DNA of 36,286 bases from Akkermansiaceae bacterium (GTDB taxonomy: Bacteria > Verrucomicrobiota > Verrucomicrobiia > Verrucomicrobiales > Akkermansiaceae). Under the pieces are notes generated by a model. It saw only the letters and a program-made list of their open reading frames with translations. It was not told where the DNA came from and did not search any database. This document shows positions 7,913 to 36,153 of this stretch, piece after piece. Positions within the stretch are counted from its first letter, which is position 1; the number at the start of each line of letters is the position of its first letter. The stretch spans positions 1 to 36,286 of the forward strand of contig CAIRGO010000102.1 in NCBI GenBank assembly GCA_903878115.1, in the 5' to 3' direction. The position numbers and the translations under genes are program-made.

Positions 7913-8635
7913 TCAGCCAGCGAAGCTTTTGTTCACGACATTCCAGTTGAGGACGTTCCACCAAGCGGTGATGTAATCAGCGCGGCGATTTTGGTAGTGT
8001 AGATAGTAGGCATGTTCCCATACATCGAGGCCGATCAATGGCTTGCCGAGATCGGTATCGGCGATGAGGCCTTTCATCAATGGGTTGTCTTGATTGGGAG
8101 TGGAGGTGATTTTTAGTTTGCCATCTTGCATGATCAACCAAGCCCAGCCTGATCCAAATCGTTTCATCGCGGCATCGGCAAAGGCGGTTTTCATTGCATC
8201 CATGGAACCAAAACTTGCATTGATTGCTGTGGCTAACTCTGCTGATGCTTGACCACAATCTTTCGCGGGAGCCATGATTTTCCAGAAAAAATTATGATTC
8301 CAGTGACCTCCACCGTTGTTGCGCAGCGTAGCCATCAGCGCTGCATCGCTCGTTTTTGATATTTGAGCCATGAGATTATCGAGCGAATCTTTTTTGAGAA
8401 CTGGATTTGCCGTGAGTGCATCATTAAGCTTGGTGATATAGGCGGCATGATGTTTGCCGTGATGAATGGTCATGGTCAAAGCATCAATGTGTGGTTCCAG
8501 AGCTGCTGGGTCATATGCTAATGCGGGAAGGGTATACACGGCTGATTCCTCCGCTGCATGGCTAACAGAAAATGCAGAAGCAGCTGCTGCGGCTGATAAT
8601 TTCACGAAATTGCGACGATCAATTGAGGTAGTCAT
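7913..8635 (-). CDS. superoxide dismutase (Mn/Fe family) with twin-arginine signal
   Basis: Converts superoxide to oxygen and hydrogen peroxide. The frame extends to 8695, but the ATG at 8635 gives a clear Tat signal (SIDRRNFVKLSAAAAASAF, AHA-like end SHAAE) and sits 6 nt after a promoter -10 box, so that start is chosen (240 residues). Metal ligands by family alignment are H58 (TIHHGKHH), H114 (GGHWNHNFFW), D204 and H208 (DVWEHAYYLHYQNRR). The STPNQDNPL segment is more usual in Mn-type or cambialistic enzymes. The Tat signal implies folding and metal loading in the cytoplasm followed by export, so it would act in the periplasm or envelope. It is transcribed toward tetR but is separated from it by regulatory sequence. 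Confidence 0.92.
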   Translation of the reverse strand: MTTSIDRRNFVKLSAAAAASAFSVSHAAEESAVYTLPALAYDPAALEPHIDALTMTIHHGKHHAAYITKLNDALTANPVLKKDSLDNLMAQISKTSDAALMATLRNNGGGHWNHNFFWKIMAPAKDCGQASAELATAINASFGSMDAMKTAFADAAMKRFGSGWAWLIMQDGKLKITSTPNQDNPLMKGLIADTDLGKPLIGLDVWEHAYYLHYQNRRADYITAWWNVLNWNVVNKSFAG

Positions 8636-8641
8636 CCAACA

Positions 8642-8669
8642 AGGATACTCTGAATACTGGTTTTCGCAA
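8642..8669 (-). promoter_or_regulatory. candidate sod promoter, leaderless geometry
   Basis: On the minus strand TTGCGA (8664-8669, 4 of 6), a 16-nt spacer, TATCCT (8642-8647, 4 of 6), then 6 nt to the ATG at 8635. Transcription start is predicted at or next to the start codon. No Shine-Dalgarno is visible. Confidence 0.45.
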
Positions 8670-8753
8670 GAGGATTTCTTATAAATTGTGCGCATTTTTT
8701 TTGATCATTGCTGAATTTCATGCATGATCCTTTTTGAGATGATTAGAGAGAAA

Positions 8754-9620
8754 ATGCAGACGCTATCAAGCCAAATGTGGCAGGAGTTAGCGACCGCACA
8801 CCGCGCTCGTGCTCAGTGCTGGACACTGCCTGCGCTGGATCGCCATTCTCGGCAACAATCGCATCCGGTGGATGATTTTCTTTTCACGTATTATAGTTTT
8901 CCGTTGACGAAGATCGAGCAATGGCATCCTGGGTTTGGGGTGGCCATTGCTTGCGATGAGGAAATGCGGCCTAGTTGGATGAAGAGACATTATACCTTAG
9001 AAAACGGTCATTTGTTTGCAGATCCGACTTTGTTGTTAGACAAAGAGCGAGCTCGATTTTTTTGGATCAGAGAGTTGTTAGCAAATACGGCTCAGCAGAG
9101 CGGCAACTTCGGATGCTTTGGCATGCACGAATGGGCAATGGTCTATCGATCGGGAGAAACCCGTCATGGCCACGTGACCGGCCTGCGATTGCCTGCGGAG
9201 GAGGTGGATCGTTTTGTGGAATCACGCCCCATTCGCTGCACGCATTATGATGCATTTCGATTTTTTACGCCTGAGGCGCGTCCCTTGAATCAATTGCAAC
9301 CAGAGTTAAATCATCGCGAAATCAATGAACAACCAGGGTGCATTCACGCGAATATGGATTTGTATAAATGGGCCTACAAATGTGTGCCATGGATTTCTGG
9401 TGAATTTTTGTTGGATTGTTTTTCGTTAGCCAAAGACTTGCGTCAATTGGACATGCGCGCCAGTCCGTATGATTTGCGGCAGTATGGCTACGATTCAGTA
9501 GATATCGAGACTGCCGATGGGCGGAAACAATATGAAATGGAACAGCGGAGTTTAGCAGAGCGCGCCGCACCCATGAGAGCTAAACTGATCGCTGTGTTGG
9601 ATCGAATGCTAGCTGTTTGA
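8754..9620 (+). CDS. conserved protein of unknown function (often misnamed 3-methyladenine DNA glycosylase)
   Basis: A soluble protein of 289 residues from the chosen start. I recognise the family by SHPVDDFLFTYYSFPLTKIE followed by WHPGFG, and by the Trp/His/Tyr-rich character throughout. Similar proteins in actinobacteria and elsewhere are labelled 3-methyladenine DNA glycosylase in databases, but I see no helix-hairpin-helix or known glycosylase motif, so function is best left open. Further conserved-looking stretches are FGMHEWAMVYR, HYDAFRFFTPEA and IHANMDLYKWAYK. In-frame ATGs lie at 8724, 8739 and 8754; the last follows a purine-rich GAGAGAAA and is chosen, giving MQTLSSQMWQ. It is divergent from sod and stands 51 nt upstream of gpmI, with which it may be cotranscribed. 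Confidence 0.75.
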   Translation: MQTLSSQMWQELATAHRARAQCWTLPALDRHSRQQSHPVDDFLFTYYSFPLTKIEQWHPGFGVAIACDEEMRPSWMKRHYTLENGHLFADPTLLLDKERARFFWIRELLANTAQQSGNFGCFGMHEWAMVYRSGETRHGHVTGLRLPAEEVDRFVESRPIRCTHYDAFRFFTPEARPLNQLQPELNHREINEQPGCIHANMDLYKWAYKCVPWISGEFLLDCFSLAKDLRQLDMRASPYDLRQYGYDSVDIETADGRKQYEMEQRSLAERAAPMRAKLIAVLDRMLAV

Positions 9621-9671
9621 GGGAAATCAATAAGAATTCCTGTGGACGTCAGCGCCGCAGTGGAGTAAGTA

Positions 9672-11225
9672 GTGCCCGTCATGGCAAAGAAACCAGTAGT
9701 ATTGATCATTCGTGATGGATGGGGTGTGAATCCCGGAGGAAAAGAAACCGCGGAACGCGACGGCAATGCTACGCTTTTAGCTCAGACCCCTTTTCATGAT
9801 CTCCTCTATGCCACATTTCCGCAGGCACGGCTTTCCGCTAGCGGGATGGATGTCGGTTTGCCTGATGGACAAATGGGCAATAGCGAAGTAGGACATCTGA
9901 ATCTCGGTGCTGGACGCATTGTTTGGCAGGATTTGACGCGCATCAATAAATCAATTCTCGATGGCGAATTGGAGCAAAATTCCAATCTACAAGCAGCCTT
10001 TGCGAAGGCAAAAAATTCCCGACTCCACTTGATCGGTTTGGTGAGTGATGGCGGTGTTCATTCTCACCAAGACCATTTGATCGCCATTGCACACATGGCT
10101 GCTCGTGCAGGGGTGACGGATACTTTGGTTCACGCGATCACCGATGGTCGTGATACTTCGCCTACCAGCGGTGCTGGTTATCTAACGGAAGTGGCAAGTC
10201 GTTTGCAAGGCAGCCATGCCACCATCGCTACTGCGATTGGTCGTTACTATGCGATGGATCGCGATAAACGCTGGGAAAGAAATAAACTTGCGTGGGATGC
10301 GATCGTGCTTGGTCGTGGCGAAGTCACTACGCTATCGCCTGGTGATGCTGTGCATGCTGCCTACGCTGCCGATCCTCGTGGTGATGAATTTCTCCAACCA
10401 TTAATTTTTTCTCATGCTAACGAACTACGCGTGCGCGATGGTGATGTGTTTTTGTGGTTCAATTATCGCAGCGACCGCACGCGACAATTGACCGATGCTT
10501 TTTTGATCGATGATTTCGATAGTTTTGATCGTGAAGTACTGCCGAAGGTCGAATACGTGACTCTCACAAGTTATGGCGCGGGTTATGATTGCCCGATCAT
10601 TTTTGAGCCGCAATCGCTGTCGATGATTTTGGGTGAAACAGTATCGAATGCTGGTCTCACGCAGTTGCGATCTGCGGAAACGGAAAAATATCCCCACGTC
10701 ACATTTTTCTTTAATGGCGGAGTGGAGCCACCATATCCGGGCGAAGATCGCTATCTTGCCATTAGCCCTAAAGAGGTGGCAACTTACGACTTCAAACCAC
10801 AAATGAGCGGACCAGATGTGGCGTTTGAAGTCTATCGACGCATGGAAAATTACGACCTAGTGATTGTGAATTTTGCCAACCCCGATATGGTAGGGCACAC
10901 GGGGGTTGTCGAAGCAGGCGTTCACGCAGTAGAAACCATCGACCTAGGTGTCCGACTATTAGTCGAGCGCACATTAGCACTTGGCGGAAAACTTTTCATC
11001 ACAGCCGATCATGGCAATTGTGAAGTGATGCGCAATCCCGATGGATCGCCGCATACGGCACATACGACAAACCTAGTACATTCGCTCTACGTTGCGGCAG
11101 ATGCGGATCAGTATAAGCTGCACGATGGTATTCTCGCTGATGTAGCGCCGACATTGTTAGCCATGTTAGGTGTCGCTCAACCTGCGGAGATGACTGGTAA
11201 ATCCTTGTTAGAGAAAAAGGCATAA
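9672..11225 (+). CDS. gpmI: 2,3-bisphosphoglycerate-independent phosphoglycerate mutase
   Basis: Interconverts 3- and 2-phosphoglycerate in glycolysis and gluconeogenesis using two Mn2+ ions and a phosphoserine intermediate. The length, 517 residues, is typical. Motifs seen: RDGWG (first metal Asp, residue 15), GQMGNSEVGHLNLGAGR with the catalytic serine (about residue 71), HAITDGRDTSP, GRYYAMDRDKRW, FNYRSDRTRQL and ADHGNCEV (metal-binding Asp/His). The start is either the GTG at 9672, 6 nt after GGAG (9662-9665), or the ATG at 9681; the spacing favours the GTG. It is followed 7 nt later by trmL, so the two are probably cotranscribed. The gene also shows the TTA-before-G codon bias: six of the seven TTA codons I could find precede G. 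Confidence 0.97.
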   Translation: MPVMAKKPVVLIIRDGWGVNPGGKETAERDGNATLLAQTPFHDLLYATFPQARLSASGMDVGLPDGQMGNSEVGHLNLGAGRIVWQDLTRINKSILDGELEQNSNLQAAFAKAKNSRLHLIGLVSDGGVHSHQDHLIAIAHMAARAGVTDTLVHAITDGRDTSPTSGAGYLTEVASRLQGSHATIATAIGRYYAMDRDKRWERNKLAWDAIVLGRGEVTTLSPGDAVHAAYAADPRGDEFLQPLIFSHANELRVRDGDVFLWFNYRSDRTRQLTDAFLIDDFDSFDREVLPKVEYVTLTSYGAGYDCPIIFEPQSLSMILGETVSNAGLTQLRSAETEKYPHVTFFFNGGVEPPYPGEDRYLAISPKEVATYDFKPQMSGPDVAFEVYRRMENYDLVIVNFANPDMVGHTGVVEAGVHAVETIDLGVRLLVERTLALGGKLFITADHGNCEVMRNPDGSPHTAHTTNLVHSLYVAADADQYKLHDGILADVAPTLLAMLGVAQPAEMTGKSLLEKKA

Positions 11226-11232
11226 TTTTTCC

Positions 11233-11688
11233 ATGTTTCACATCGTTCTCGTAGCACCAGAAATTCCTCATAACGCCGGTGCCGCTGGGCGCTTGGCGTT
11301 GGCTACTGGTTCGGTATTGCATTTGATCAAACCACTCGGATTTTCGTTAGAAGACAAATACGTTCGTCGCACGGGACTGGACTATTGGAAAGATGTTGAC
11401 CTGCGCGTATGGGAGAATCTCGAAGAAATGCAAGCGGCTGCCGGAGTTGATGCGAGATTTTGGTATTTGAGCACCAAGGCTGCAAAAGGCTTGTGGGATG
11501 CGAAATTTGCTGATGGCGATTATCTGATCTTTGGTTGTGAAGGCAGAGGCTTGCCAGAGAACATTGTCTATGGGGCAGGGGAGCAAGCCGTCACCATTCC
11601 GATGAAAGCAGATAGCACACGCAGCTTGAATCTTTCCACCGCTGTAGCCATCGTGCTTTACGAAGCGGTGAGACAGGTGGGATTTTGA
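11233..11688 (+). CDS. trmL: tRNA (cytidine(34)-2'-O)-methyltransferase, SpoU/TrmL family
   Basis: Transfers a methyl group from S-adenosylmethionine to the ribose of the wobble nucleotide in certain tRNAs, typically tRNA-Leu. At 151 residues it is the minimal trefoil-knot SPOUT domain expected of TrmL. All three SpoU motifs are present: EIPHNAGAAGRLALATG (motif 1), DYLIFGCEGRGLPENI (motif 2) and DSTRSLNLSTAVAIVLYEAV (motif 3). The ATG lies 7 nt after the gpmI stop. Its TGA directly abuts the oppositely oriented stop of the next gene within TGATCA (11686-11691), so there is no spacer between the convergent genes. Confidence 0.94.
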   Translation: MFHIVLVAPEIPHNAGAAGRLALATGSVLHLIKPLGFSLEDKYVRRTGLDYWKDVDLRVWENLEEMQAAAGVDARFWYLSTKAAKGLWDAKFADGDYLIFGCEGRGLPENIVYGAGEQAVTIPMKADSTRSLNLSTAVAIVLYEAVRQVGF

Positions 11689-12942
11689 TCAAGGAGAAAT
11701 GATCACGGGAGTGCCGCTGGTGGCTTCGGCGAAAATTTCTAACAAGTCATCTTGATTCAAACTCAGACAGCCCCAAGTAAGTGCGCGGCTTCCTGCTGGA
11801 TCCCAGCCGTTTTCGGCCCAGCCATGAATGCCGATTCCTCCGCCAAGTGCGGTGTTTTGTGGCGGCATGACCTTGCGCTTGTGCGCTGCGACAATGCTTT
11901 CCATCACAGGTTGGGTAATGCGTTTTTCGGCAAATCCTAGACGCGCATCATAACTGTTAGGGTAATCGAGTCGGATCCACGCGACTCCGAGAAATTTTCG
12001 CCACTCTTCGCCATCGAACGGTCCTTTTGCTTTGCTGAGTATGTGGTATTCGCCCTCGGGCATTTTGAGATCACCTTCTGCCAGTTTATGGCCTAACGGT
12101 TTTTGACTGAGTGCAACTTCGTAAGTTTTGATTACTTGGCCTTTTTTGATCAGGTGCATTTGGTGGGTGCTTTTTATCGCCCAGAAGATCTTTGTGGCTG
12201 TCGCGGGGTGCGTAAGTTTGCGATGCGCATTGATAAAACTTGATGGTTGCTCGTAGTTTTTCTGCACCATCTCGGTCGTCCAACCATTGCTCGATGGCCA
12301 AAATTCAGGTGAAAATTTCGCCATTTCATCCTTACGGATTTCAAAGTGGAGGTGAGCAGGAAATCGATCACCATCGCCCTTACCAATCGTTCCAATCAGT
12401 TCGCGGCGTTTCACGAGTTGATCTTTTACCACTTTCATTTCGTGAAGATGATCGTACTGAGAAAAGATGCGTCTGCGTTGTCCATTTTCCAGATAATAGT
12501 GCTCGATCACCACGATGTTTCCGTAAGGTCCAGTGGCTTTTTGTGCGTAGATCACACGTCCATTTCCGATCGAGTAAATCGGCTGTCCGAGATCAGTATC
12601 ACCGCCGCCATTGCCATTCCAATCCTCGCCAGTATGGATGCCGAGAGAATAGTTTTCGGCAAAATTGGTAGCGATATACCAGCCTGAGTATTTTTTTCCG
12701 TTAGGGGCGATATACGAACCTTTTGCATTTACATCTCCTATGGGAAAGTCAAAGCCATCTGCGAGTTGAGGATCGATGAATTGTTGCAATCGAGCGGCGT
12801 TGTCGTTTGCTGTGATTTGTTCCGGTGTGAGCAACTGAACTGCGGGTGTCACTAAAATACTCGGTTGATTGTCTTCAGAATATACGAGTGCCAACAGAGA
12901 AATAGAAATAGTCGTGATGCCGACAAAATAAAGTTTGTTCAT
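11689..12942 (-). CDS. M23 endopeptidase fused to an L,D-transpeptidase (YkuD) domain
   Basis: A 417-residue cell-wall enzyme combining two opposing activities. After one N-terminal hydrophobic anchor or signal (residues 5-21) comes a LytM/M23 domain with the zinc motif H103-x3-D107 (HTGEDW), YDHLHE and H197-L-H199 (HLHFE), all intact, so peptide cross-link cleavage is expected. From about residue 250 an ErfK/YkuD domain follows: LIKKGQVIKTYEVALSQKP, IGIHG with H373, then TWGCLSL with catalytic C392. The usual SHGC-R is TWGC-S here, a variant seen in other YkuD enzymes. It would form 3-3 peptidoglycan cross-links or attach proteins. It is last in a four-gene operon, and its ATG overlaps the DUF1501 stop (ATGA). 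Confidence 0.9.
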   Translation of the reverse strand: MNKLYFVGITTISISLLALVYSEDNQPSILVTPAVQLLTPEQITANDNAARLQQFIDPQLADGFDFPIGDVNAKGSYIAPNGKKYSGWYIATNFAENYSLGIHTGEDWNGNGGGDTDLGQPIYSIGNGRVIYAQKATGPYGNIVVIEHYYLENGQRRRIFSQYDHLHEMKVVKDQLVKRRELIGTIGKGDGDRFPAHLHFEIRKDEMAKFSPEFWPSSNGWTTEMVQKNYEQPSSFINAHRKLTHPATATKIFWAIKSTHQMHLIKKGQVIKTYEVALSQKPLGHKLAEGDLKMPEGEYHILSKAKGPFDGEEWRKFLGVAWIRLDYPNSYDARLGFAEKRITQPVMESIVAAHKRKVMPPQNTALGGGIGIHGWAENGWDPAGSRALTWGCLSLNQDDLLEIFAEATSGTPVIISP

Positions 12943-14066
12943 GATAAGGAAGAAATTGGCTCTAACGAAAAATCAGGAAACACCTGATTCATCGGTGCGC
13001 TGGGTGATATCTTAGTGAGTAGCGGAGCCAATACATTGCGATAGTTATTGATAACGGGTAAATCACCCGGACCGCTGAGTTGGGTTGATGCTAGCCCTGA
13101 CCAAGTGCCATGCATACGCCCTCCTTGATGGTTGCCGCCTAACAAAAACATCGCGCTCCCGAGACCATGATCTGTTCCACCGGCGCTGTTTTCAGCAACT
13201 CTGCGCCCAAATTCGGTCATGACGATCACTGTGGTATGATCTAACAACTTACCACCTAAATCCTGCGCAAAAGCAGCCAAACCATTGCCGAGTTGCAGGA
13301 TGGGACTATTGATCACGGATGATTGCGTAAGATGTGAATCCCAACCGCCAAGGCTAATGGCAACTGCTTGCACCCCCACGCGTGCTTTCAGCAGTTTCGC
13401 GATCTGTTTCATTCCTTGTCCGAAAGTTTCGTTACCATATTGTGCTCCGTTAGCTGGCGCAGAACGATCATTGGTGAGTGATTCAATTTTTTTTAAGGCG
13501 GCTAGCGCTAGCGCTCCTGCCGTGCCTAACAAATCAGGGGTGCTACCATACATGCTCGCGAGTTCTTGGATGAATGCGGGTTTAGCGTATTTTCCCAAAC
13601 CAAAGTCTTGCAACGATTGCATCGCCGCGCACGATGGCGCGCCGCGCAGGCATTCAGGCAGTTGTGAACCGATAGCTACTGCGGTGAGTGGTGATTCTCC
13701 GGCATCGGGCCGCACGCGTAAAAATCGCCCTAACCAACCACCTGCCGCGAGGCCGCCGTGCTCCATAAAATCCTGCGCTTCAAAATGCGATCGTGTCTGA
13801 TCTTCTGAACCGACCGCGTGGATCGCGCTCAGTTTGCCTTCCTTCCACCATGGCAGAATTGCGGAGAGATTTGGATGAAGTCCAAAAAATCCATCGATAT
13901 CTAACAGCTCATTTTTTTTCAGCCCAATCGTCGGTCTAGCGCGGTAGTAGCCATCATCAGCGTGTGGCGTTACTAAGTGCAGACCGTCAGCTCCGCCACG
14001 CAAGAAAACAACTACCAAGGTTTTCTCGGTATCGCGGTTGTCATTGATGATTGCGGTGGATGCCAT
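12939..14066 (-). CDS. DUF1501 protein
   Basis: A 375-residue member of DUF1501, distantly related to the alkaline phosphatase/sulfatase fold and very common in planctomycetes and verrucomicrobia, where it pairs with DUF1800. Family signatures are LVVVFLRGGADGLHLVTPHAD near the N-terminus (given over 20 residues only in part: VVVFLRGGADGLHL), SHFEAQDFMEHG, SLGGWDSH, and near the C-terminus VIVMTEFGRRVAENSAGGTD followed by HG. Unlike many relatives it shows no Tat signal, which suggests export with a partner or cytoplasmic location. The gap to the DUF1800 gene is 4 nt, and the next gene overlaps by 4 nt. Biochemical function is not established for the family. Confidence 0.92.
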   Translation of the reverse strand: MASTAIINDNRDTEKTLVVVFLRGGADGLHLVTPHADDGYYRARPTIGLKKNELLDIDGFFGLHPNLSAILPWWKEGKLSAIHAVGSEDQTRSHFEAQDFMEHGGLAAGGWLGRFLRVRPDAGESPLTAVAIGSQLPECLRGAPSCAAMQSLQDFGLGKYAKPAFIQELASMYGSTPDLLGTAGALALAALKKIESLTNDRSAPANGAQYGNETFGQGMKQIAKLLKARVGVQAVAISLGGWDSHLTQSSVINSPILQLGNGLAAFAQDLGGKLLDHTTVIVMTEFGRRVAENSAGGTDHGLGSAMFLLGGNHQGGRMHGTWSGLASTQLSGPGDLPVINNYRNVLAPLLTKISPSAPMNQVFPDFSLEPISSLS

Positions 14067-14070
14067 GATG

Positions 14071-15543
14071 TTAGTGGATTTGGAAGGAGGGACTGGCTAG
14101 CACTAATGCCAGCGGCGCACCTGATGCTTTCGCGGCTCGTATTTCCTCATCTGTCGCTTGTCTGCCAAGTAAATGTGCGGCACAAGGAATTTCGCCTCCC
14201 GCTGCTTTGACTAAAAGATGGGTGTCAAGCGCGGTTCCTTTGATTTGATTCGCAGCGAATTCGGAGGCAAAACGCCAACGCCACAGGAGAGTCGCCATCC
14301 ACGGTTGCGGTTCTGTCGGATAGCCATCGGGCGTTGGATATTGAAATGGTGAGTGGCCCATGCGCAAAAGATAGTCCTGCAGCGCTGGTCCCGCATCGGT
14401 CTCTGCTGCCGTTGCGCGAATCGCAGAAACCACATAGTGAAATGGACGTTTGATTTTGTTGCCTCGATGTTGCCAAAATTCTTCTTGTGCAAAAACTGAT
14501 TGCAGTGTTTCACGAATGTCACCGCCAGTTGTAAGAAAAGTTTTTGTGACATTTTCCACAGCTTGCTGAGGGGGATTGTCGGCGATGAAACATCGGCATA
14601 ACTTGGTGGCAAGATGATGAGCTGTGGATGGATGATGTGAAACAATATCGATGACGCGATCAAGATCGCCTACGCCGAGACCTGCTGGGATCGTCACGCC
14701 TAACACTTCCTTGGCTCCATCGTCATGATCTGCGGGGTGAAATTCGACTTTTCCCACAGCAAAACGTGCTTTGTGACGTTCGCGTAGTCCCCAACCGGTG
14801 AGGCAACGTGCCACTTCCATGACATCCTTTTGCGAATAACCACCATCAACTCCGAGTGTGTGAAGTTCTAACAATTCACGGGCATAGTTTTCATTTGGTT
14901 TTTCGTTAGGCTTGCTACGTTTATTGACGCGACCATCGAGATACCATAGCATCGCTGGACTGAGAGCCGATGCTTTGAGCATGGCGGCAAAGTTTCCCAA
15001 TGCATGTTTGCGGATTACAGAGCGATCATCGAGTGGCTTGAACCAGCGCGAGTCGCCTTTCGATGGATCGATATTAAAATGATCAGTCCAAAAATCTACC
15101 ATGACTTCGTGCAATTGCCGTTGCGAGTGAATGGCGCGCTGGATTTTAACACGAGTGAGTTGATCGAGTAATTCAGTTGGCGCATACTCTAACAATTCTC
15201 CTGCTGGGTGCGCATCGAGAGCTTCGAAATGTTTGCTCTTGCTGAGCGAGCGAGTATCATCGATGTCATCCGGGTTGAGTTGTTCATTGATGTAGGCACG
15301 GGCACCGATCGCCGTGATCCGAGCATGATCACCTGGGCGGGCGCCAAAACTCAGTCTGTTCAGCACATGGCTTGCATCATCGATGCTCGTAGCGAGAGGA
15401 ACATTGAATGGCGGCAGATTCCCATCTTGTTGTTGCGCCCATGAAAAAAACCATTGAGAAAAAGCAGAGAATCCACCAACGCCAGCCACAGCTCCACCTG
15501 CTGCTGCTACTTTTACGAAGGTGCGACGACTACTGTCTTTCAT
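14071..15543 (-). CDS. DUF1800 protein with twin-arginine signal
   Basis: A 490-residue DUF1800 protein. The N-terminus SSRRTFVKVAAAGGAVAG is a Tat signal, so export to the periplasm or envelope is likely. DUF1800 hallmarks are HVLNRLSFGARPGDH near residue 60, FWTDHFNID, the highly conserved NENYARELLELHTLG, then VARCLTGWG and a C-terminal region rich in Trp/Phe. DUF1800 and DUF1501 genes are almost always adjacent; they are often induced together in polymer-degrading PVC bacteria, but no biochemical activity is established. Its ATG overlaps the stop of the upstream membrane-protein gene, and the DUF1501 gene follows after 4 nt, so this is the second gene of one operon. Confidence 0.93.
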   Translation of the reverse strand: MKDSSRRTFVKVAAAGGAVAGVGGFSAFSQWFFSWAQQQDGNLPPFNVPLATSIDDASHVLNRLSFGARPGDHARITAIGARAYINEQLNPDDIDDTRSLSKSKHFEALDAHPAGELLEYAPTELLDQLTRVKIQRAIHSQRQLHEVMVDFWTDHFNIDPSKGDSRWFKPLDDRSVIRKHALGNFAAMLKASALSPAMLWYLDGRVNKRSKPNEKPNENYARELLELHTLGVDGGYSQKDVMEVARCLTGWGLRERHKARFAVGKVEFHPADHDDGAKEVLGVTIPAGLGVGDLDRVIDIVSHHPSTAHHLATKLCRCFIADNPPQQAVENVTKTFLTTGGDIRETLQSVFAQEEFWQHRGNKIKRPFHYVVSAIRATAAETDAGPALQDYLLRMGHSPFQYPTPDGYPTEPQPWMATLLWRWRFASEFAANQIKGTALDTHLLVKAAGGEIPCAAHLLGRQATDEEIRAAKASGAPLALVLASPSFQIH

Positions 15544-16067
15544 GAAATTTCCGATTGTTCACTGGCCAACAGTGGTGGTGGATTTTTACGTTGTCTCAAG
15601 GCAAAACACCACGCGCCGATGCCAGCAGCGAGGATGAGAGGAATTAGCAGCAATTGACCTAATACAGGCAGGAGAAATGTAAGTGACAACACCGTGCCAC
15701 CGCGTAGCACTGCGCGCCATGGTTGGCTTTCATCAATTGGCGTGCTCATGCCACGACCGATACGCCGAGCTAGTCCCGCGCTTCCTAACAGGCCGATAAA
15801 CAATGGCGCTGCAATCATGAACAAGCCAATCCACTTCAGTGCCACAGGAAATGCTTTGAGAACGATCAATCCAAGAATGATCGGCAACACTCCCGCAAGA
15901 AATCCAAGAAGAGTGATCAAGATCGGTCTCGCAAATTTTTCCTCGCAGCGCTCAACTAGTCTTGGAAACAACGCCGTAGCTGCCAGCCAATAACTAAGAA
16001 ACATCATGAGTAAACCTATAGTAGTGAAAACCCAAGCAAGAACGTTTGCCGTAGTGATATATTCCAT
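15540..16067 (-). CDS. small multi-pass membrane protein, unknown function
   Basis: A 175-residue integral membrane protein that I cannot assign to a named family. Hydrophobic segments are at about 8-32, 47-72, 78-95 and 120-158 (two helices probable in the last), so four or five membrane passes are likely. A short charged loop GRGMSTPIDESQPWRAVLRG separates the third and fourth. The C-terminal tail is basic then acidic (RQRKNPPPLLASEQSEIS). It heads the DUF1800/DUF1501/M23-LDT operon and overlaps DUF1800 by 4 nt, so a role in the envelope localisation or export of those proteins is possible, but that is inference from position only. Confidence 0.75.
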   Translation of the reverse strand: MEYITTANVLAWVFTTIGLLMMFLSYWLAATALFPRLVERCEEKFARPILITLLGFLAGVLPIILGLIVLKAFPVALKWIGLFMIAAPLFIGLLGSAGLARRIGRGMSTPIDESQPWRAVLRGGTVLSLTFLLPVLGQLLLIPLILAAGIGAWCFALRQRKNPPPLLASEQSEIS

Positions 16068-16266
16068 AGTGAAAAAACTAGTGAAATGGCAAAAAATTGC
16101 GAGGAAAAACTAATTGAAAAATTAGAATGCATAGGGAAATAGCGCTATATTAACAGAGGAAAATCACTGGAAGTTAGAGCAGGCGTCTCGCAATTTTTGT
16201 TAGATAAATACAATAGAGCGTATTCTTGCTGATGCAATTACCCCCTCTAACACATCGTATCTATCA

Positions 16267-16683
16267 TCAGGTAGAAAATGGATTTAGGACTTTCACGCCT
16301 GCGTGTTTGAAGTATGTGACGTTGCGCGTCACGATTGTCAGTCCGTGGCGATGGGCAGTGGCGGCAAGTTGGCTATCTATTGTAGGAAGTGTATTGCCGC
16401 GCTTATCTGCCCGAGCAACAAGTTGACCCCAAACGTGTGCCGTACTGGTATTAAAACTAAGGATACGTCCTTCCATACGATGGCATAATTCTGTCAACCA
16501 TGATTGCAGCGCTGTTTTACGTTTGCCAGAGGTAAGGTATTCAATCCCTCGCTTAATTTCACCAATCGAAATGCTGCTAACATAAAGTTCTGGCTCGTGC
16601 TTACTCAGCCATTGCAGCACTAGAGGATCAGGCTTAGTTTTGACGAGTTCGCTAAAAACGTTATTATCGACGAGGTAACCCAT
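16267..16683 (-). CDS. vapC: VapC-like PIN-domain ribonuclease toxin
   Basis: A 138-residue PIN-domain toxin of the VapC/FitB group, expected to be a Mg2+-dependent endoribonuclease held inactive by the adjacent antitoxin. Acidic residues are visible at D6 (YLVDNNVFSELV), E42 (SIGEIKRGIEYL) and D103 (TIDSQLAATA). The C-terminal TRNVTYF corresponds to the usual TRN--DF, so the final aspartate is replaced by Tyr while N121 remains. The second residue after D6 is Asn where Thr is usual (DNNV for DTNV). These may be neutral or may lower activity. It starts 4 nt after the antitoxin stop, a typical coupled arrangement. Confidence 0.9.
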   Translation of the reverse strand: MGYLVDNNVFSELVKTKPDPLVLQWLSKHEPELYVSSISIGEIKRGIEYLTSGKRKTALQSWLTELCHRMEGRILSFNTSTAHVWGQLVARADKRGNTLPTIDSQLAATAHRHGLTIVTRNVTYFKHAGVKVLNPFST

Positions 16684-16687
16684 AGCA

Positions 16688-16924
16688 TTAAAGAGAAAGG
16701 GGACGAGTGGAGTCTTTTGAACGCGGTGCGAGCACTAACGGATAAGGGCAGGCGAGTAGGTGGTCAATAAGCCCCTGATTGGGCCTGCGGGAGATACGAC
16801 GGAGAACAATCGTGTCTTCGTCTTCGATAAATACTTCAAAATCTTGACCTGGCTCCAACTGCATCTGTTCACGGACCGCACTGGGTAGGACAATCTGGCC
16901 TTTTTGGGATAGTACTGTGGTCAT
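16688..16924 (-). CDS. vapB: VapB-like AbrB/SpoVT-fold antitoxin
   Basis: A 78-residue antitoxin with an N-terminal swapped-hairpin AbrB DNA-binding domain (SQKGQIVLPSAVREQMQLEP, then GQDFEVFIEDEDTIVLRRIS) and a short C-terminal tail that would wrap the toxin. Antitoxins of this group repress their own operon. The likely operator is the perfect palindrome GTAAGA-AAA-TCTTAC at 16926-16940, directly before the start and overlapping the -10 box. The first 17 or so codons and about 58 nt of upstream DNA have a diverged duplicate at the start of the trypsin-like gene. Confidence 0.92.
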   Translation of the reverse strand: MTTVLSQKGQIVLPSAVREQMQLEPGQDFEVFIEDEDTIVLRRISRRPNQGLIDHLLACPYPLVLAPRSKDSTRPLSL

Positions 16925-16925
16925 G

Positions 16926-16940
16926 GTAAGAAAATCTTAC
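16926..16940. promoter_or_regulatory. probable VapB operator palindrome
   Basis: GTAAGAAAATCTTAC has perfect 6-bp arms (16926-16931 and 16935-16940) around AAA. It lies one base before the vapB ATG and contains the -10 hexamer. Position and symmetry are what is expected for autorepression by an AbrB-fold antitoxin dimer. Confidence 0.6.
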
Positions 16941-16962
16941 ACCGCTTCCGTAAACAAGGCAA
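16934..16962 (-). promoter_or_regulatory. vapBC promoter, leaderless geometry
   Basis: On the minus strand TTGCCT (16957-16962, 4 of 6), an exact 17-nt spacer, TAAGAT (16934-16939, 4 of 6), then 9 nt to the ATG at 16924. Predicted transcription start is within 2-3 nt of the start codon. The same spacing and -10 are kept in the duplicated copy upstream of the trypsin-like gene. Confidence 0.6.
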
Positions 16963-17028
16963 TACAAATTTGTGATGTATTCGACCATGCATTTTTCAAG
17001 ATGCTCCCTGTGGTGATAATTGTTGGCG

Positions 17029-18501
17029 CTATTTTAGGTTGTCGTTTATAAACTTTGCGACCGTCTCTGCTGTGATCGCGAAGTTGAGTTTATCGATTTC
17101 TACATCGCTAAGGCCATACGTCAACATGCCTACAAATTGTCCCGTTTGATCCACCACAGGTCCTCCGCTATTTCCTTGATTCGCAGTGATGTCTAATTGA
17201 TATACTGGATGCCCTTTCAATTCTTGATCGATTTTTGTGATCGATCCAAAGTTCATTGCGGCAGTATTCGTATCGGCGGGAAAACCGATCAAAGTAACAG
17301 GCAGGTCGAGAGTGGTTTTTTGACTACGGAATCCAATGATGAAGTGCTCATTGAAATCGATTTTGATGATCGCTAAATCATACTCGGGAGAAGTGGCGAT
17401 GATTTTAGCTTTGAAGGAACTCCCGTCATCCAATGTAACGTTCAGGCTATTTTTCTTTTCCACGAGATGACGATTTGTCAAAATGTATCCTCCTTTTTTG
17501 AAGAAAAATCCAGTGCCGTGATCGTTTTCATGAGAAATTCGAACACAGCTCGGTGCGATTTTTGCAAGAATTTCATCTTGTCGCAAAACTTTAAATTGAT
17601 CAGTCGGAATGAAGGGGTTGCTTCGAATCTCTATCGCTTTTTCATTGTTGCCCGCCATTTCGTAATATTCTAATGCGGACCCAAAGAGCTTGAGTTCTTC
17701 TAATTTCACGGCAAGCAGATTGGCGCATCTTTTTTTAGATTCTTCTAAATGAGCTTTGGTATAGAGTCGAATCGCTTCTTCGTATTGTTGCGAACTCTCT
17801 GCATTTTTTGCAGCTTCTAGCCAATCGACTCGTGATCGAATAAAAGTGTTCAATGAGACAATTTTTTCACGCGTTAACATTGGGCGATATGCGTCTTTAG
17901 GAAGAGACCGCTCATTGATGCTCAGCATTGTGTTCGCTAGAATAGAAACGACATTATAATCTTTTTTATTGTGATAAATGAGAATCATCGCATCGGCATC
18001 ACGCAATTGCCGAATCAAATTTTCACGTGCATCGTTCAACTCGGCGGTGGCTTTTTTTCTGACTGCCTCAGCTTTCATGGATGAGTCTTTTGCGGCTGCT
18101 CTGTTAATGGTGCCAAAAGCATTGGGGCTAAGCCATTCTCTGGCATGTTTCTCATGTGTTTTGGCCTCAGTTTCCGCTTTCTGTTGATCTATGACTTTAG
18201 TCGCTACATTAAACTCAGCCGAGTAGGTATTTTTTATGATTCTACTCATCGCTTGAATCGCGACTTTCTCCGCCCCATTTTTGCTGTCGGCTAACTTTTC
18301 CAAATTTGATAAGACAAGCTTTGCTGACTCGATGTCAGGTAGAATGAGTGGAGATAAGGTTTTTGATAGTTCGGAGGACGTCGATGGTTCCTGTCCTTCT
18401 GTGACGCCGAAGTTCATGAGTGCGATCACGATGCAAGCGCGTGCTGAGCGCAATGCACAGAATAAGGCAATCTGGCCTTTTTGGCGAATACCTATCGTCA
18501 T
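17029..18501 (-). CDS. trypsin-like (S1C/DegP-type) serine protease with TPR-like N-terminal region
   Basis: A 490-residue protein. The C-terminal half is a trypsin-like domain with the full triad: H345 (ILTNRHLVE), D375 (DLAIIKI) and S445 (TANQGNSGGPVV). No PDZ domain follows, so this is not a full DegP. The middle (about 60-300) is helical and charged, with a TPR-like stretch AAKNAESSQQYEEAIRLYTK and SALEYYEMAGNNEKAIEIR. The first residues, MTIGIRQKGQIALFCALR, match the VapB N-terminus (SQKGQIVLPSAVR) because the start region is a duplicated vapB 5' end. The segment RSARACIVIALMNFGVTEGQ could be what remains of its own signal peptide, with a TTG at 18453 as an alternative start. A periplasmic role would require that. 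It lies just upstream of vapBC on the same strand. Confidence 0.88.
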   Translation of the reverse strand: MTIGIRQKGQIALFCALRSARACIVIALMNFGVTEGQEPSTSSELSKTLSPLILPDIESAKLVLSNLEKLADSKNGAEKVAIQAMSRIIKNTYSAEFNVATKVIDQQKAETEAKTHEKHAREWLSPNAFGTINRAAAKDSSMKAEAVRKKATAELNDARENLIRQLRDADAMILIYHNKKDYNVVSILANTMLSINERSLPKDAYRPMLTREKIVSLNTFIRSRVDWLEAAKNAESSQQYEEAIRLYTKAHLEESKKRCANLLAVKLEELKLFGSALEYYEMAGNNEKAIEIRSNPFIPTDQFKVLRQDEILAKIAPSCVRISHENDHGTGFFFKKGGYILTNRHLVEKKNSLNVTLDDGSSFKAKIIATSPEYDLAIIKIDFNEHFIIGFRSQKTTLDLPVTLIGFPADTNTAAMNFGSITKIDQELKGHPVYQLDITANQGNSGGPVVDQTGQFVGMLTYGLSDVEIDKLNFAITAETVAKFINDNLK

Positions 18502-18559
18502 CGTAGGGAAATCTTACACTGCTTCAGAAAACATGCCAATGTGAATTTGTGGTGAATTC
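18468..18559 (-). repeat. vapB 5' duplication, copy B (captured by protease gene)
   Basis: Gapless 92-nt relative of 16891-16982. In this copy the ATG at 18501 starts the protease, the promoter is kept, and the first codons still read MT---RQKGQI. The operator-like element is GTAGGG-AAA-TCTTAC (18503-18517), so one arm carries two changes and symmetry is lost. Confidence 0.85.
18511..18539 (-). promoter_or_regulatory. protease promoter derived from vapB promoter
   Basis: On the minus strand TTGGCA (18534-18539, 5 of 6), a 17-nt spacer, TAAGAT (18511-18516, 4 of 6), then 9 nt to the ATG at 18501. Its -35 is closer to consensus than in the vapB copy. Leaderless geometry is kept. Confidence 0.55.
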
Positions 18560-18599
18560 TTAGTCCTTGGATATAATTTTTTCAGCGTCCGCCCAACGA

Positions 18600-21500
18600 T
18601 TATTTTTGGATCGTGAAATCTGGTGAAGTAGTGATCAGATGAATGATGGCTCTTAGGCGGTCACGGCGCTGGATTTCGGTCGCCGCTCCTGTTGTATAGC
18701 TGAGGGTTGTCACATAGTTACTGATAATGGCTTTTGCTTGGCTTGATAGTTGCCCTGAAGTCAACAGTGTTGATAGTTCATCAATCAATGCGCTTATATT
18801 TGCATTGTCCGTCCATGGCACGGTCGTGCTAGGACGATTGCCTAACCATTTGGTGAAATCCAATGCCAATGTTCCATTTCCGCTGCGGAAGCTGGAGATG
18901 GGGCTATTGCCGCTTGGTTTGAAAATCCCCTCATAGATGAAATTCGATTGACGAATCACATTCGTATCAGAGCTCAACTGGAATTCAGGAGTCACCATTT
19001 TGTTGGTCGCTAGGGTTCCTGGAAATTGATAGTCTGGCATATAAAAATTAAACACCGTAGGCGAGCGCAGCGGCGTCTGACCCAAGTCAGTCTCGGTATC
19101 ACCAACGGCATAATTACTATAAGCCGTGGAGGCATTTCCAGAAAACGAGAGGATCGGATTTTGCGGACTCATGACGATGGTTCCTGAGCGACTGGACGTT
19201 AACGCGCCTGCACTGTTTGTAATGGTTAGATTTGTGTCATCCACTACCGTGACGGGGTAGAGTCCACTCGTGGGGCTGGTAGTCTGTCCACTGACTGGAG
19301 TGAAACTAAAATACGCCATATCGCCTGAGATCAGATGGTGATTTGTTGCGCAGGTAATGGCGACCGTAGCATTGGTCGCCGCCATGCTATAACCGCCGCT
19401 ATGTTTTACACCTATGGCTGATTGATTTGATAGTGTCGCGGCGCTATCTACAGTGAAGGTAAATACAGTACTGCTGACATAAGTTATTGGATAGAGGCGA
19501 TTGGCATATCCTCCTGTGAGGAATTTGATAAAAACTTGATGTCCTGTGCTCAGTCCATGGGTGCCAGTGACCATGGTTGCGGTTACGGTAGTTCCACTCT
19601 GTGTGTAAGTCAGCGGTAGTACTTCTTTCACGCGGACTGAAAACCCAGTAGTTGTGACGGGTATGCTGCTTGTGATCGAATACACTCCTCCCGTGGCGGG
19701 GCTAGGAGATCCAGAGGTGACATTAATGAGTATGGGATTACCACTAACTAGAGAATGCGGCGTTGTTGTTGTAAACGTAATGAAGCCATCGTTTTGTTGA
19801 TAGCTAGCGGTGAGTGGCGCTGTGGGCAGGAAAGCACGGGCGATCGCTGAGATGCGTAGCAACGGTTCTTTTTGTTTTCCAAAACGTTGCTGATTCACGA
19901 TGGCTGGTGAGCGTGCTTCATAATCGAGTAGGATCGCTTTGATGATTGCTTTCATGTCCCCACGAACGCCACTGCCATTGTTTTCAAAAGCTTTTACCAC
20001 GCGATAAACGTAGGCATTGCTTGGCGTGCTCGTTACGAGACGTTGGATCAATTGTCTGCAAACGAAAGGACCGAGGTTAGGGTTTTGGAAAATTGAATCG
20101 TGCGTTGCATCCATTTCTTGCGCTGCGAGATTTTGAAATTCATCATCGGTGCGAACAGTGGTGTTAGAGGCATAGTTTGTGTTGGCATTAAGCGGAACGA
20201 CAACATTCGTGCTAGTGGTGATTTTTGGCAAGCCAGGCAATACCACATTATTTAGTAAACGTTTCGGTCCAATATCATGTCGATCAGGCACCTCGCGCAT
20301 CGGATTGAGCCAATCGCTGCTCGGCGACCAATTCACAGGCTTGAATCCGCCCACATCAGCTTGATTGTAATTCCAACCAGTGAATGCGTGGGCAAATCCC
20401 ATGATTTCTTCTTGTTGATAGGTGGGGATCGGTTGGTCTTGCGAATTCAGCATGAGTGAGCCGTCTGGGTGCAGACGATAGAGACCAATGCTAAAAAGTT
20501 GCAAAATTTCTCGCGCATAGTTTTCGTTAGGAATACGACCACTGGCTTTGTCGGGTCGCTCATTTTTTAACATATCAAGGTAACGTCCCATGGTGGGGTG
20601 AAGGCTTACGTCTTTTAACAAATCGCGGACGTTGCCAAAGGCGCGATCGAGCATCATGTCGTAATAATCTGAGAGAGCATCGGCTTTGTCATCGAGCGTG
20701 CCAGCTTCTGAAGCGACAAAAATTTGTGAGAGCGCGAAAGCAACACGTTGCCGCAATTGGTCAGGACCAGTGACTGATTGTTTCCACCAGGCATTGAACA
20801 ACTGGCTTCCCGAGTAGGTCGGGTTGTTAGGATTGGTAATGTTGCGCGACGCGAAAACTTCACTGTAAAGAGAGCTTTTTGGAATGGTGAATTGTTGGTC
20901 AACCCATCCGCTGTAGCCGAGTGCGCCCACGGATGTAATCTCTGCCTCGGTGGTGCCATAAGTAGCCTGCGTGAGAAAACGAGACGCAGCATTCCGATCT
21001 GTGTGATCAGAAGTCCATGCTGGTGGATTGGCGGGGACGGTGAATACTTTTGATCCAACTTGTGGGCGCATGGTGCCAGAAATTTCACCACCGGGATAAT
21101 TGGCCGAGTGAATATTGATGTAGGCTTGACCATTTTTGATGACGTTCTTGATATCTTCAATCGAGATGGCACCAGCGGGCACAAATGTCCACAGATAGGA
21201 TCCATCTGCTTGAGGAGTGCTGGTATCAATGTCATAAATGATCGCACCGCCATGGGCCGAAGAGTGAATATGCGCACCCGTTTTGGGGGCTGTTAGATTG
21301 GCATAGACGAAGCGTAATGTTGCTTCGGTTTCTGCTTCATTCACTTGCAAGGTGGCGTTGCCGTAGCCACCAGTGAGATTCGCCCCTTGTGCAGAAATTT
21401 GAGCGGTAAAAAGGGTTCCCGTCGTCTCGGTATTGACGATATTGATCCATGGCGATAAGGCGAAAGAAGGAATTACGGCAGAGGGAACTGTGATTGCCAT

Positions 21501-23603
21501 CGGGTCAGTTGTTCCTTGCGATGGTAGTAGCCAGCCTACGGCTAGATGTGCATCGTCGGTTTGATTGATGGTGCGAGCTTCCCAGTAATATCGCTGTCCA
21601 GCCTCGAGCCATAATATTGGAGATTTTGCTCCATTGGACCAAGATTTCACCGTGGTGCTGGTCGAAAGAGTAGCTCGAGAAAAAAGATTGATCGTTTCAT
21701 TATCGTTAGAGATGAGTAATTCGGCAGTATCATCACCGGTGATCCAAAAACGATACATTCCGGTTTCTGGTGCCGTCATGTAACCGCGAAGTCGTTGCGC
21801 TCCATTTGCCAACTGGGACAAGGGAATCTCTGTGGTGGGTAAGGTGCTGGAGCTACTTGCATTACTCGACCAATCAAAATTTCCGACTGTAGCAGTGGGG
21901 GAAATGTTATTCCATGTTTCGTGGGTGATGGCAGCTCCCGTTGCAACGATGTCCAATTGCAACATCGCGCTGCCCATGCCGTAGATATTCGTGGCGGTCA
22001 CGGGAATCAACCAGCTCCCTGCCGTCGTTGTAGGACCACTGAGCAGTCCGCTTGTTGCATTGATGTTCCATCCAGCGGGTAAACCACTGGCAGAGAAAGA
22101 TGTCGGGTTGCCACTTGCGGTTAGTTGCCAAGATTGCGTGCCGCTATTTTGCAAAAGAATTTTTGAAGCAGAACCAATCAACTGAGGTGGCGTCTGCGGA
22201 AACATGCGGGCTGTGGGAATGACCTGTTTCGTAAGACTAGCCGCTTGCCACGATAGGATGCATTTTGCGTCGCCAGTAGTTTCATACTGTTCTAACACAA
22301 TTGGCACTCGTTTGCCGCCGACGAGATCGATGAGGCCGGTATAGGCTTTTGATGTTACGGTGCTTCCGCTACCCGGCCAGTTATTAATGATCAATTGACC
22401 ATTGACCCACAGTCTACCACCGAGGTTGCAATCAACCTCAAACGTGTAGGTCTGGGAAAATTCGGGTAAAATTTCTCCGCTCCAACGACTGGAGAAATAA
22501 TCGACATTCACACCAGCAGCAGGGGAGTTCACTCCTTGGACACTGGCACTGGGCCACGTGTAGTTGATTGTGGCATCGGTCCGCGAGACGATACGATTGT
22601 TATATAGAGGCGGATTGGTCGTGCTAACATTTGTTTCATTAAAAAATTCCGCAAATAATCCCGTGCCATTGGCGAGAATATTATCATGGATGAGAATACC
22701 AGCGCTGGGTGAGGGGGCTACGACATAGGAGGTATCTGGAGAAATAGTTAGAACGACAGCTTCATCCGATTCAGTCATGCTATCGGCAAGCGGCGTGAGC
22801 GCAATCGTGGCATTGTTTACCCCCATGGCTAGATTGATCGAACTGGCGAGAGCATTGTGATCGCCGGCAGTGGTGGCACCGCTCTTCGCGAGTAAAACTG
22901 TTAGGCCAGCCAGACCGCCTGAGCGAGTGACCGTAAATGTTCCGGCATCTGCTGGATTCGTTCCGAGGGACTCTGAGGCATCGGCATCGGTTGCTGTGAT
23001 GCTTACATAAGAAGGCGCTTGTAAAGAATAGGTGAGGCGAGCTAGATCGGTGTCGCCGCAATGGCAGGAAGGATAACACGTGGAGTTGGCTCCACAGTTG
23101 CAGGCCCCGGGACCGTTGTGGTTCGGATCGTAGCCTACTTGAATTTCTTCCCAATCGGAGACGCCATCGTTGTCGGTATCAGTATCGAATACGCGGACGC
23201 GAAAAAATTGATGATTGCCAGTGACCGTAAGACTTCCCGATAGCATATTGCTGGTCCCTGCAGAGATCGCGCCGACGTCTTGCCAATTACTAGCGCTCAG
23301 ATCAGTACTGCATTCTACTTGGTAACGTTTGCCGAGAATCGATGGCCATTGCAGAGTGACAGTGTTGCCAGTGCGGACAATGCTAGTAACCTGGATGATG
23401 TCGTTTGCCTGATACGGATTGGTGCCTGCTGCGGATTCGGCCGCATTGCTTTGACCATCGCCATCACTATCCGCAACAGAGGGTATCGCAGCTCCAGGAT
23501 ACTTGAGTTGCCAGACATCGCTCATTCCGTCGGCGTTAAGATCAAGCACCGCATGAGCAATTGTGGTGAGGTAGAGAAAGAAAATAGTCAGGAAAAGCTT
23601 CAT
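18600..23603 (-). CDS. very large exported multi-domain DUF1800 protein (Calx-beta, PA14, CHRD)
   Basis: A 1667-residue secreted protein. Signal peptide at 1-18. Then come thrombospondin-3/dockerin-like Ca2+ loops (LNADGMSDVW, DSDGDGQSNAAE, DTDNDGVSDWEE), a Cys-rich linker near 168-183, and a Calx-beta-like domain (about 195-310). A PA14 domain follows (about 312-465, GLFAEFFNETN and SRWSGEILPEFSQTYTF), then an Ig-like segment and a second PA14-like region (about 555-715, LRGYMTAPETGMYRFWITGD). A CHRD domain (about 721-865, TGAHIHSSAHGG) precedes DUF1800 from about 868 to the end, with NENYAREILQLFSIGLYRL. Inside DUF1800, at about 1263-1478, sit roughly three beta-rich repeats not part of the usual domain. 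No DUF1501 partner is adjacent, unlike the smaller DUF1800 gene. PA14 domains suggest carbohydrate binding. Confidence 0.9.
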   Translation of the reverse strand: MKLFLTIFFLYLTTIAHAVLDLNADGMSDVWQLKYPGAAIPSVADSDGDGQSNAAESAAGTNPYQANDIIQVTSIVRTGNTVTLQWPSILGKRYQVECSTDLSASNWQDVGAISAGTSNMLSGSLTVTGNHQFFRVRVFDTDTDNDGVSDWEEIQVGYDPNHNGPGACNCGANSTCYPSCHCGDTDLARLTYSLQAPSYVSITATDADASESLGTNPADAGTFTVTRSGGLAGLTVLLAKSGATTAGDHNALASSINLAMGVNNATIALTPLADSMTESDEAVVLTISPDTSYVVAPSPSAGILIHDNILANGTGLFAEFFNETNVSTTNPPLYNNRIVSRTDATINYTWPSASVQGVNSPAAGVNVDYFSSRWSGEILPEFSQTYTFEVDCNLGGRLWVNGQLIINNWPGSGSTVTSKAYTGLIDLVGGKRVPIVLEQYETTGDAKCILSWQAASLTKQVIPTARMFPQTPPQLIGSASKILLQNSGTQSWQLTASGNPTSFSASGLPAGWNINATSGLLSGPTTTAGSWLIPVTATNIYGMGSAMLQLDIVATGAAITHETWNNISPTATVGNFDWSSNASSSSTLPTTEIPLSQLANGAQRLRGYMTAPETGMYRFWITGDDTAELLISNDNETINLFSRATLSTSTTVKSWSNGAKSPILWLEAGQRYYWEARTINQTDDAHLAVGWLLPSQGTTDPMAITVPSAVIPSFALSPWINIVNTETTGTLFTAQISAQGANLTGGYGNATLQVNEAETEATLRFVYANLTAPKTGAHIHSSAHGGAIIYDIDTSTPQADGSYLWTFVPAGAISIEDIKNVIKNGQAYINIHSANYPGGEISGTMRPQVGSKVFTVPANPPAWTSDHTDRNAASRFLTQATYGTTEAEITSVGALGYSGWVDQQFTIPKSSLYSEVFASRNITNPNNPTYSGSQLFNAWWKQSVTGPDQLRQRVAFALSQIFVASEAGTLDDKADALSDYYDMMLDRAFGNVRDLLKDVSLHPTMGRYLDMLKNERPDKASGRIPNENYAREILQLFSIGLYRLHPDGSLMLNSQDQPIPTYQQEEIMGFAHAFTGWNYNQADVGGFKPVNWSPSSDWLNPMREVPDRHDIGPKRLLNNVVLPGLPKITTSTNVVVPLNANTNYASNTTVRTDDEFQNLAAQEMDATHDSIFQNPNLGPFVCRQLIQRLVTSTPSNAYVYRVVKAFENNGSGVRGDMKAIIKAILLDYEARSPAIVNQQRFGKQKEPLLRISAIARAFLPTAPLTASYQQNDGFITFTTTTPHSLVSGNPILINVTSGSPSPATGGVYSITSSIPVTTTGFSVRVKEVLPLTYTQSGTTVTATMVTGTHGLSTGHQVFIKFLTGGYANRLYPITYVSSTVFTFTVDSAATLSNQSAIGVKHSGGYSMAATNATVAITCATNHHLISGDMAYFSFTPVSGQTTSPTSGLYPVTVVDDTNLTITNSAGALTSSRSGTIVMSPQNPILSFSGNASTAYSNYAVGDTETDLGQTPLRSPTVFNFYMPDYQFPGTLATNKMVTPEFQLSSDTNVIRQSNFIYEGIFKPSGNSPISSFRSGNGTLALDFTKWLGNRPSTTVPWTDNANISALIDELSTLLTSGQLSSQAKAIISNYVTTLSYTTGAATEIQRRDRLRAIIHLITTSPDFTIQK

Positions 23604-28390: not shown

Positions 28391-28449
28391 GGGCCGCATT
28401 TCGATTTTTCAACATTCTTGTAACAATCGCTCCGTCTTTGGGAGAATAT

Positions 28450-30278: not shown

Positions 30279-30311
30279 CGGATTTACCATCAAAGCACCC
30301 CAAAACCCATC

Positions 30312-34694: not shown

Positions 34695-34728
34695 GCGTTC
34701 ATTCCAGTAATCACTCTTCCATCACATC

Positions 34729-36090: not shown

Positions 36091-36101
36091 CAAGACTCAT
36101 G

Positions 36102-36130
36102 AGCGCCGCAAATTCACTGCGCTTTTTTTT
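36102..36130 (+). terminator. probable intrinsic terminator after the sulfatase
   Basis: AGCGC (36102-36106), a 12-nt loop and GCGCT (36119-36123) form a 5-bp GC-rich stem, directly followed by eight T (36123-36130). The loop is long and the stem short, so efficiency is uncertain. Position just after the last gene of the operon supports it. Confidence 0.55.
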
Positions 36131-36153
36131 CCCTATGCCCGCTAGCTTGTGGC

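Follow-up and report, generated by a model that had tools for sequence, protein, structure and literature searches.

Type II toxin-antitoxin (TA) operons of the vapBC kind known from Shigella combine the gene of an AbrB/MazE-type antitoxin with an adjacent gene for a PIN toxin, and carry a palindrome in the promoter. Some antitoxins have been reported to repress outside promoters as well; MqsA was claimed to be a global regulator, of csgD and rpoS (PMC4894380), but this regulator role was not confirmed later (PMC6918082). Antitoxin control beyond the own operon is a matter of dispute, one reason being that proposed sites are look-alikes. Promoters themselves can change hands: in experimental evolution, genes have captured promoters through duplication, deletion or recombination (PMC4395868). 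Here, we describe a locus in which a copy of the control region, ATG and first codons of vapB heads the gene of a putatively secreted protease. An important distinction of this locus is that the site before the protease demonstrably copies the control region of the antitoxin and that the genome holds no third copy, which makes for a clean two-promoter test.

The window, i.e., the whole stretch of DNA that was analyzed, is a complete contig of 36,286 bases from one draft MAG of an uncultured bacterium (4.4 Mb in 331 contigs). On its minus strand, a DUF1800/PA14/CHRD gene is followed by the protease, vapB and vapC, and then by an unrelated DUF1800/DUF1501 group (Table 1). The vapB and vapC genes are 4 bp apart, and orthologous pairs are present in many genomes; with the antitoxin directly before a PIN toxin and a palindrome in the promoter, the pair fits a vapBC type II TA operon. 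The catalytic triad of the protease (H345, D375, S445) appears intact in the alignment. The match to the NCBIfam model degP_htrA_DO (5e-24), like those to all NCBIfam HtrA models, is under the curated cut-off, and Pfam finds no PDZ domain in the protein, which ends directly after the C-terminal Trypsin_2 domain; on these grounds, the protease is best described as HtrA-like and not filed as an HtrA. Elsewhere in the window, a second DUF1800/DUF1501 pair lies at 12939-16067; at E<=1e-50, none of the nine further genomes of the genus has a match to the DUF1800 gene of this pair. At 28400-36286, the GC content goes up to 57-61%, from about 49% before, and holds this level to the contig end; this stretch, with genes for an ECF sigma factor, FecR, a CBM96/GH141-like protein and a sulfatase, is a possible acquired block or assembly junction.

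Table 1. Features of the protease-vapBC locus, in window coordinates.
Feature	Position	Strand	Basis or remark
DUF1800/PA14/CHRD gene directly upstream of the protease	18600..23603	-	3' end is the synteny breakpoint
Start of the protease gene, captured copy of vapB promoter, operator, ATG and first codons	18468..18559	-	71/92 identity, E 6e-14
Putative -35 box of the protease, TTGGCA	18534..18539	-	Consensus scan, spacer 17; rests on shared architecture
Putative -10 box of the protease, TAAGAT, with TG before it	18511..18516	-	Consensus scan and sequence; ends 9 nt before the ATG
VapB-type operator before the protease, GTAAGA-TTT-CCCTAC	18503..18517	-	Matrix rank 2 in the window; one mismatch to the pattern (per-window chance 0.04)
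vapB-derived codons 1-18 of the protease frame	18448..18501	-	Alignment to vapB and vapB homologues
Ancestral signal peptide of the protease, remains at residues 18-37, RSARACIVIALMNFGVTEGQ	18391..18450	-	tblastn to the G164 orthologue from residue 20; hydropathy
Trypsin_2 / HtrA-like protease, 490 aa	17029..18501	-	Pfam PF13365, E 1.9e-26
Start of the resident vapB, source-type copy of promoter, operator, ATG and first codons	16891..16982	-	Coding part standard among vapB homologues of many genomes
Putative -35 box of vapB, TTGCCT	16957-16962	-	Consensus scan, spacer 17
Putative -10 box of vapB, TAAGAT	16934-16939	-	Same as at the protease
VapB-type operator of vapBC, perfect palindrome GTAAGA-TTT-TCTTAC	16926..16940	-	Same place in vapB homologues of several families
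vapB antitoxin, AbrB/MazE type	16688..16924	-	PF04014, E 1.5e-10; TIGR01439 above cut-off
vapC toxin, PIN domain	16267..16683	-	PF01850, E 5.4e-13; nearest solved relative FitB, 2h1c, E 7e-20

The initial annotation had proposed that two 92-nt stretches, one at the start of vapB and one at the start of a trypsin-like protease, align without gaps at about 77 percent identity and encode N-termini reading R/S-QKGQI-[VA]-L, with the similarity fading near codon 17. All of this holds. The two stretches are identical at 71 of 92 positions (77%) without gaps; the ATG of one begins vapB (MTTVLSQKGQIVLPSAVRE) and that of the other the trypsin/HtrA-like protease (MTIGIRQKGQIALFCALRS), and the N-terminal motif is correct. 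Identity amounts to 45/58 before the ATG and 24/33 in codons 2-12, and drops to 10/18 over codons 13-18, where the last five residues are weakly alike between VapB and protease (P/F, S/C, A/A, V/L and R/R in codons 14-18). The shared upstream DNA thus covers 58 nt in the ungapped alignment; with gaps it covers about 75 nt and extends to about 16998 and 18584, nearing the stop codons of the preceding genes (the protease before vapB, and DUF1800 before the protease).

We compared the best ungapped score of the two stretches to those of 1000 dinucleotide-preserving shuffles. The observed score of 53 is far above the shuffled scores (mean 9.8, sd 1.3, maximum 17). A search of the 4.4-Mb genome with the vapB stretch matched only this stretch itself and the one at the protease (E = 6.1e-14), and for a longer query around the protease start, the vapB start was the sole other match beyond chance in the same genome. 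A mobile or dispersed repeat was ruled out, because the genome holds two copies only and the operator-ATG pattern found elsewhere belongs to vapB genes. Although the window spans a whole contig of a draft MAG, an assembly artefact or a chance similarity is barely credible: a misassembled repeat would not yield copies differing at 21 of 92 positions, the fused frame has no stop within its 490 codons, and the shuffles never came near the observed score. The match thus points, beyond chance, to common descent of the protease stretch with the 5' region of vapB.

The coding part of the repeat has a clear origin. The peptide MTTVLSQKGQIVLP is the standard start for this vapB family in many genomes, where the homologues begin with MTTVLxQKGQIVLP or near it, and therefore the QKGQ-type codons belong to vapB. 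The same palindrome lies 1-3 bases from the ATG of vapB homologues in G006, G036, G052, G049 and G002, which were picked purely by protein similarity, and the other upstream DNA of these five is unrelated; imperfect operator half-sites occur also at the vapB genes of G036, G049 and G002. In 387 genomes of the order, the exact pattern GTARGA-N3-TCYTAC-N-ATG was found at 19 distinct sites, 16 of which precede vapB followed by a PIN toxin, compared to 6 matches for the reversed pattern that served as a control. A weight matrix built from seven vapB operators of other genomes, chosen by protein similarity, ranked the vapB and protease operators 1 and 2 among about 72,500 positions of the window. 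One such palindrome, a hallmark of this family of vapBC operons, is thus present at the protease as a putative operator.

Both copies have the same promoter-like layout: TTGNCW, a 17-nt spacer ending in TG, TAAGAT, and an ATG 9 nt further on. By itself, the consensus promoter scan is uninformative, because it found 6 sites versus 5.2 expected, which is near chance. The palindrome GTAAGA-N3-TCTTAC overlaps the -10 box and ends one base short of the ATG, and the putative position of the -10 box would imply a leader of 0-4 nt. An in-frame TAA lies within the operator just before the protease ATG, and likewise at vapB. We rejected the argument that a missing Shine-Dalgarno motif indicates leaderless translation, because most genes of the window lack one: such a motif was seen at 2 of the 18 gene starts examined, many of which read ATC-ATG. 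The ATC-ATG starts and the scarcity of Shine-Dalgarno motifs suggest SD-independent initiation in this lineage.

At the protease, the operator has lost its perfect symmetry through two changes, at position 10, where the operator of G002 also lacks T, and at position 12, where vapB operators have either C or T; the right half-site is GTAGGG. It should be noted that conservation of the operator beyond its flanks is not convincing, with changes at 2 of 15 positions compared to 11 of 43 in the flanking upstream DNA. These observations, together with a -35 box that moved toward the consensus (TTGCCT at vapB, TTGGCA at the protease), are what one would expect if the capture is real but control by VapB was lost, i.e., if all that the protease acquired was a promoter, with the degenerate palindrome left as a relic. 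We consider such a loss unlikely, although it deserves to be kept in mind: the protease site still ranks second in the window after the vapB operator only, and the half-sites are imperfect also at the three vapB genes named above. The operator of vapB thus remains recognizable at the protease, and on this basis control of the protease by VapB is plausible.

For the state of the protease gene elsewhere, the non-catalytic part of the protein (residues 41-320) was used as the query in 260 genomes of the family and was found in 26, the present genome and 25 others. N-termini were read at 19 of the homologous loci. All 19 lack a QKGQ motif and a vapB-type operator; their N-termini consist of ordinary signal peptides or of different domains. 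In G029, G259, G164 and others, the signal peptide is followed directly by the conserved region, whereas the closest homologue (59%, in G003) has a signal peptide and a domain of ~150 residues like part of the type IV pilus outer-membrane (secretin) family. A second public genome collection, searched for closer relatives of the protease, yielded nothing beyond the G003 orthologue and a distantly related Flavobacterium protease. Given its absence from the 19 homologous loci, the vapB-type start of the protease is the derived state. In the genus g9, the homologues L070 and L071 (from G017 and G029) have lost the catalytic His and Ser, and are thus pseudoproteases that keep the non-catalytic region.

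Approached from the protease side, the fusion comes into view as well. In tblastn, the G164 orthologue (44%) aligns from residue 20 of the window protein on, with ARACIVIA against ARAGVIAA of the G164 signal peptide, and the ancestral methionine of the protease would lie near residue 13. Residues 22-33 form a hydrophobic core behind R18 and R21 that is homologous to the G164 signal peptide, and the hydropathy peak of 2.39 at residues 23-33 is similar to those of orthologue signal peptides. Since the likeness to vapB fades at codons 13-18 and the likeness to the orthologue starts at residue 20, the fusion point is visible from both sides. The description of the protein as an unrelated envelope-type protease has to be amended: it is an HtrA/trypsin-like protein, putatively secreted, with its own signal-peptide core behind the vapB codons. 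The central proposal, that a vapB control region, ATG and codons now head the protease gene, is supported by their absence from the 19 homologues and by the two copies in the genome. Neither of the two outcomes that the initial annotation had named as refuting it was seen: the orthologues lack this N-terminus, and the alignment score lies outside the shuffled range.

Codons 18-37 alone look like a normal signal peptide, so that the vapB-like codons might be an upstream remnant, with the true start inside the frame (TTG at codon 17, GTG at 25 or ATG at 29) and no vapB residues in the product. The absence of a Shine-Dalgarno motif is no bar to such a start, as so few genes of the window have one. 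We nevertheless regard it as improbable, because the frame is open and ungapped from the vapB-type ATG, the in-frame TAA lies just before this ATG as it does at vapB, and the 9-nt distance from the -10 box suits transcription that begins there. With the start at the vapB-type ATG, the frame runs open through the fusion across all 490 codons, ungapped despite the 23% divergence of the copies. Judged from the sequence, the protease's own promoter and start were replaced by the vapB copy, joined in frame to the signal peptide.

The vapB gene of the sister genome G006 shares the operator only and lacks the rest of the upstream DNA, and the copying was therefore local, in a lineage whose vapB already had the present upstream DNA. 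Signs of rearrangement are found at the DUF1800 gene: a DUF1501 gene comes directly after its orthologues in G006 (64%) and G005 (61%), whereas in the present genome the DUF1501 partner is on a different contig, where it sits behind a dxr-like gene. This displacement marks the 3' end of DUF1800 as a rearrangement point. The displaced DUF1501 gene (L112 2250-2370, G000:C52) runs at its 3' end into short tandem repeats, with PDLGFMMP repeated in the translations past the stop codon. The distance from the superoxide dismutase gene to DUF1800 is about 3.4 kb in G006, where a formyltetrahydrofolate-deformylase-like gene, a small ORF and DUF1501 occupy the interval, and about 10 kb here, with different genes (7913-18600); a segment of ~10 kb has thus been replaced, with the protease-vapBC unit at its edge.

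The layout of repeat, 1.5-kb cargo and repeat, the GC dip to 41-45% across the protease-vapBC stretch (16-19 kb) and the break of synteny at the DUF1800 3' end would also fit an insertion of the protease as a small segment that, on integrating, copied the 5' end of vapB and left attL/attR-like direct repeats, with any effect on control being incidental. Such insertion scars are improbable, however, because no integrase or transposase is present among those window genes that were run against Pfam, and the boundary of the repeat lies inside the protease signal peptide instead of outside the protease gene. Transfer of the protease between genomes as a cassette carried by vapBC was also considered and is unsupported by the flanks: no protease lies beside the vapBC orthologues in G006, G036 and 14 other loci whose flanks were fetched, and no vapBC lies beside the protease orthologues examined. 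As the route, the initial annotation had named either the overwriting of an old tandem vapB copy or recombination. The simplest would be a tandem duplication of the unit that runs from the protease signal peptide through its stop codon and the promoter to vapB codons 1-18; the junction would join vapB codon ~18 to the signal peptide in frame, and the first protease copy would then have been lost at the breakpoint. The arrangement was found in one genome only, the fragmented MAG.

We consider it fairly probable that a local duplication placed the vapB promoter-operator, ATG and ~18 codons on the protease, making it VapB-repressible, near-leaderless and derepressed together with vapBC. The copied unit would be a compact near-leaderless cassette with a -35/-10 promoter, a VapB palindrome over the -10 box and the ATG directly behind. 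The protease is most likely transcribed from the captured promoter, starting, as the -10 position suggests, at the vapB-type ATG or a few bases from it, and the vapB-derived residues would lengthen the positively charged n-region before the signal-peptide core. VapB or VapBC bound across the -10 box most likely represses the protease as well as vapBC, so that degradation of VapB would release VapC and raise the exported protease alongside. Eighteen residues of VapB are too few for an AbrB-type DNA-binding domain, and therefore the protease itself should not bind the operator. Protease transcripts may run into vapBC, as no strong terminator lies between them, which would give an operator-protease-operator-vapBC unit. 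A more far-reaching possibility, which we advance tentatively, as it has somewhat less than even chances, is that the TA cassette was exapted as a portable module: VapB would control the protease in cis from two operators 1.58 kb apart, release of the toxin and proteolysis in the envelope would be co-induced, and the protease transcript would feed vapBC. If so, near-leaderless TA promoters would be especially easily captured. The locus is a visible case of how a selfish or stress module may recruit a host gene, in which about 100 copied bases would rewire a gene because control region, start and operator are so compact.

Among known systems, the locus shares with Shigella-kind vapBC operons the adjacent antitoxin and PIN toxin and the promoter palindrome. 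The copied control region belongs to this vapBC family; however, one of the two putative operators here heads a protease. The PIN toxin is closest in sequence to FitB, yet its partner is an AbrB/MazE-type VapB, unlike FitA, the partner of FitB, which is of the RHH type (PMC4803016). Family homologues among the HtrA/trypsin-like exported proteases have in common with the window protein the Trypsin_2 domain and a signal peptide, putative in the window protein, followed by an ELxxxLxPLxxPDxxxAK region, but not the vapB start and operator; some of them, in genus g9, also lack the catalytic H and S. With MqsA (at csgD and rpoS) and DinJ, the locus shares an antitoxin palindrome before a non-TA gene, and since such control is contested for MqsA, caution is due on the coupling of VapB to the protease. 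No account of a protease that captured a TA promoter came up in the literature searched, which is weak evidence of absence; promoter capture is a known type of event, and a TA operator-start cassette at an exported protease is undescribed as far as the searches reached. Here, the site is a physical copy of the antitoxin promoter, ATG and codons, whereas those of MqsA and DinJ are look-alike sites. As in experimental promoter capture, a gene gained the promoter of another by rearrangement, but the present case is natural, old (23% divergence), and takes with it an autoregulated TA cassette including the ATG and first codons.
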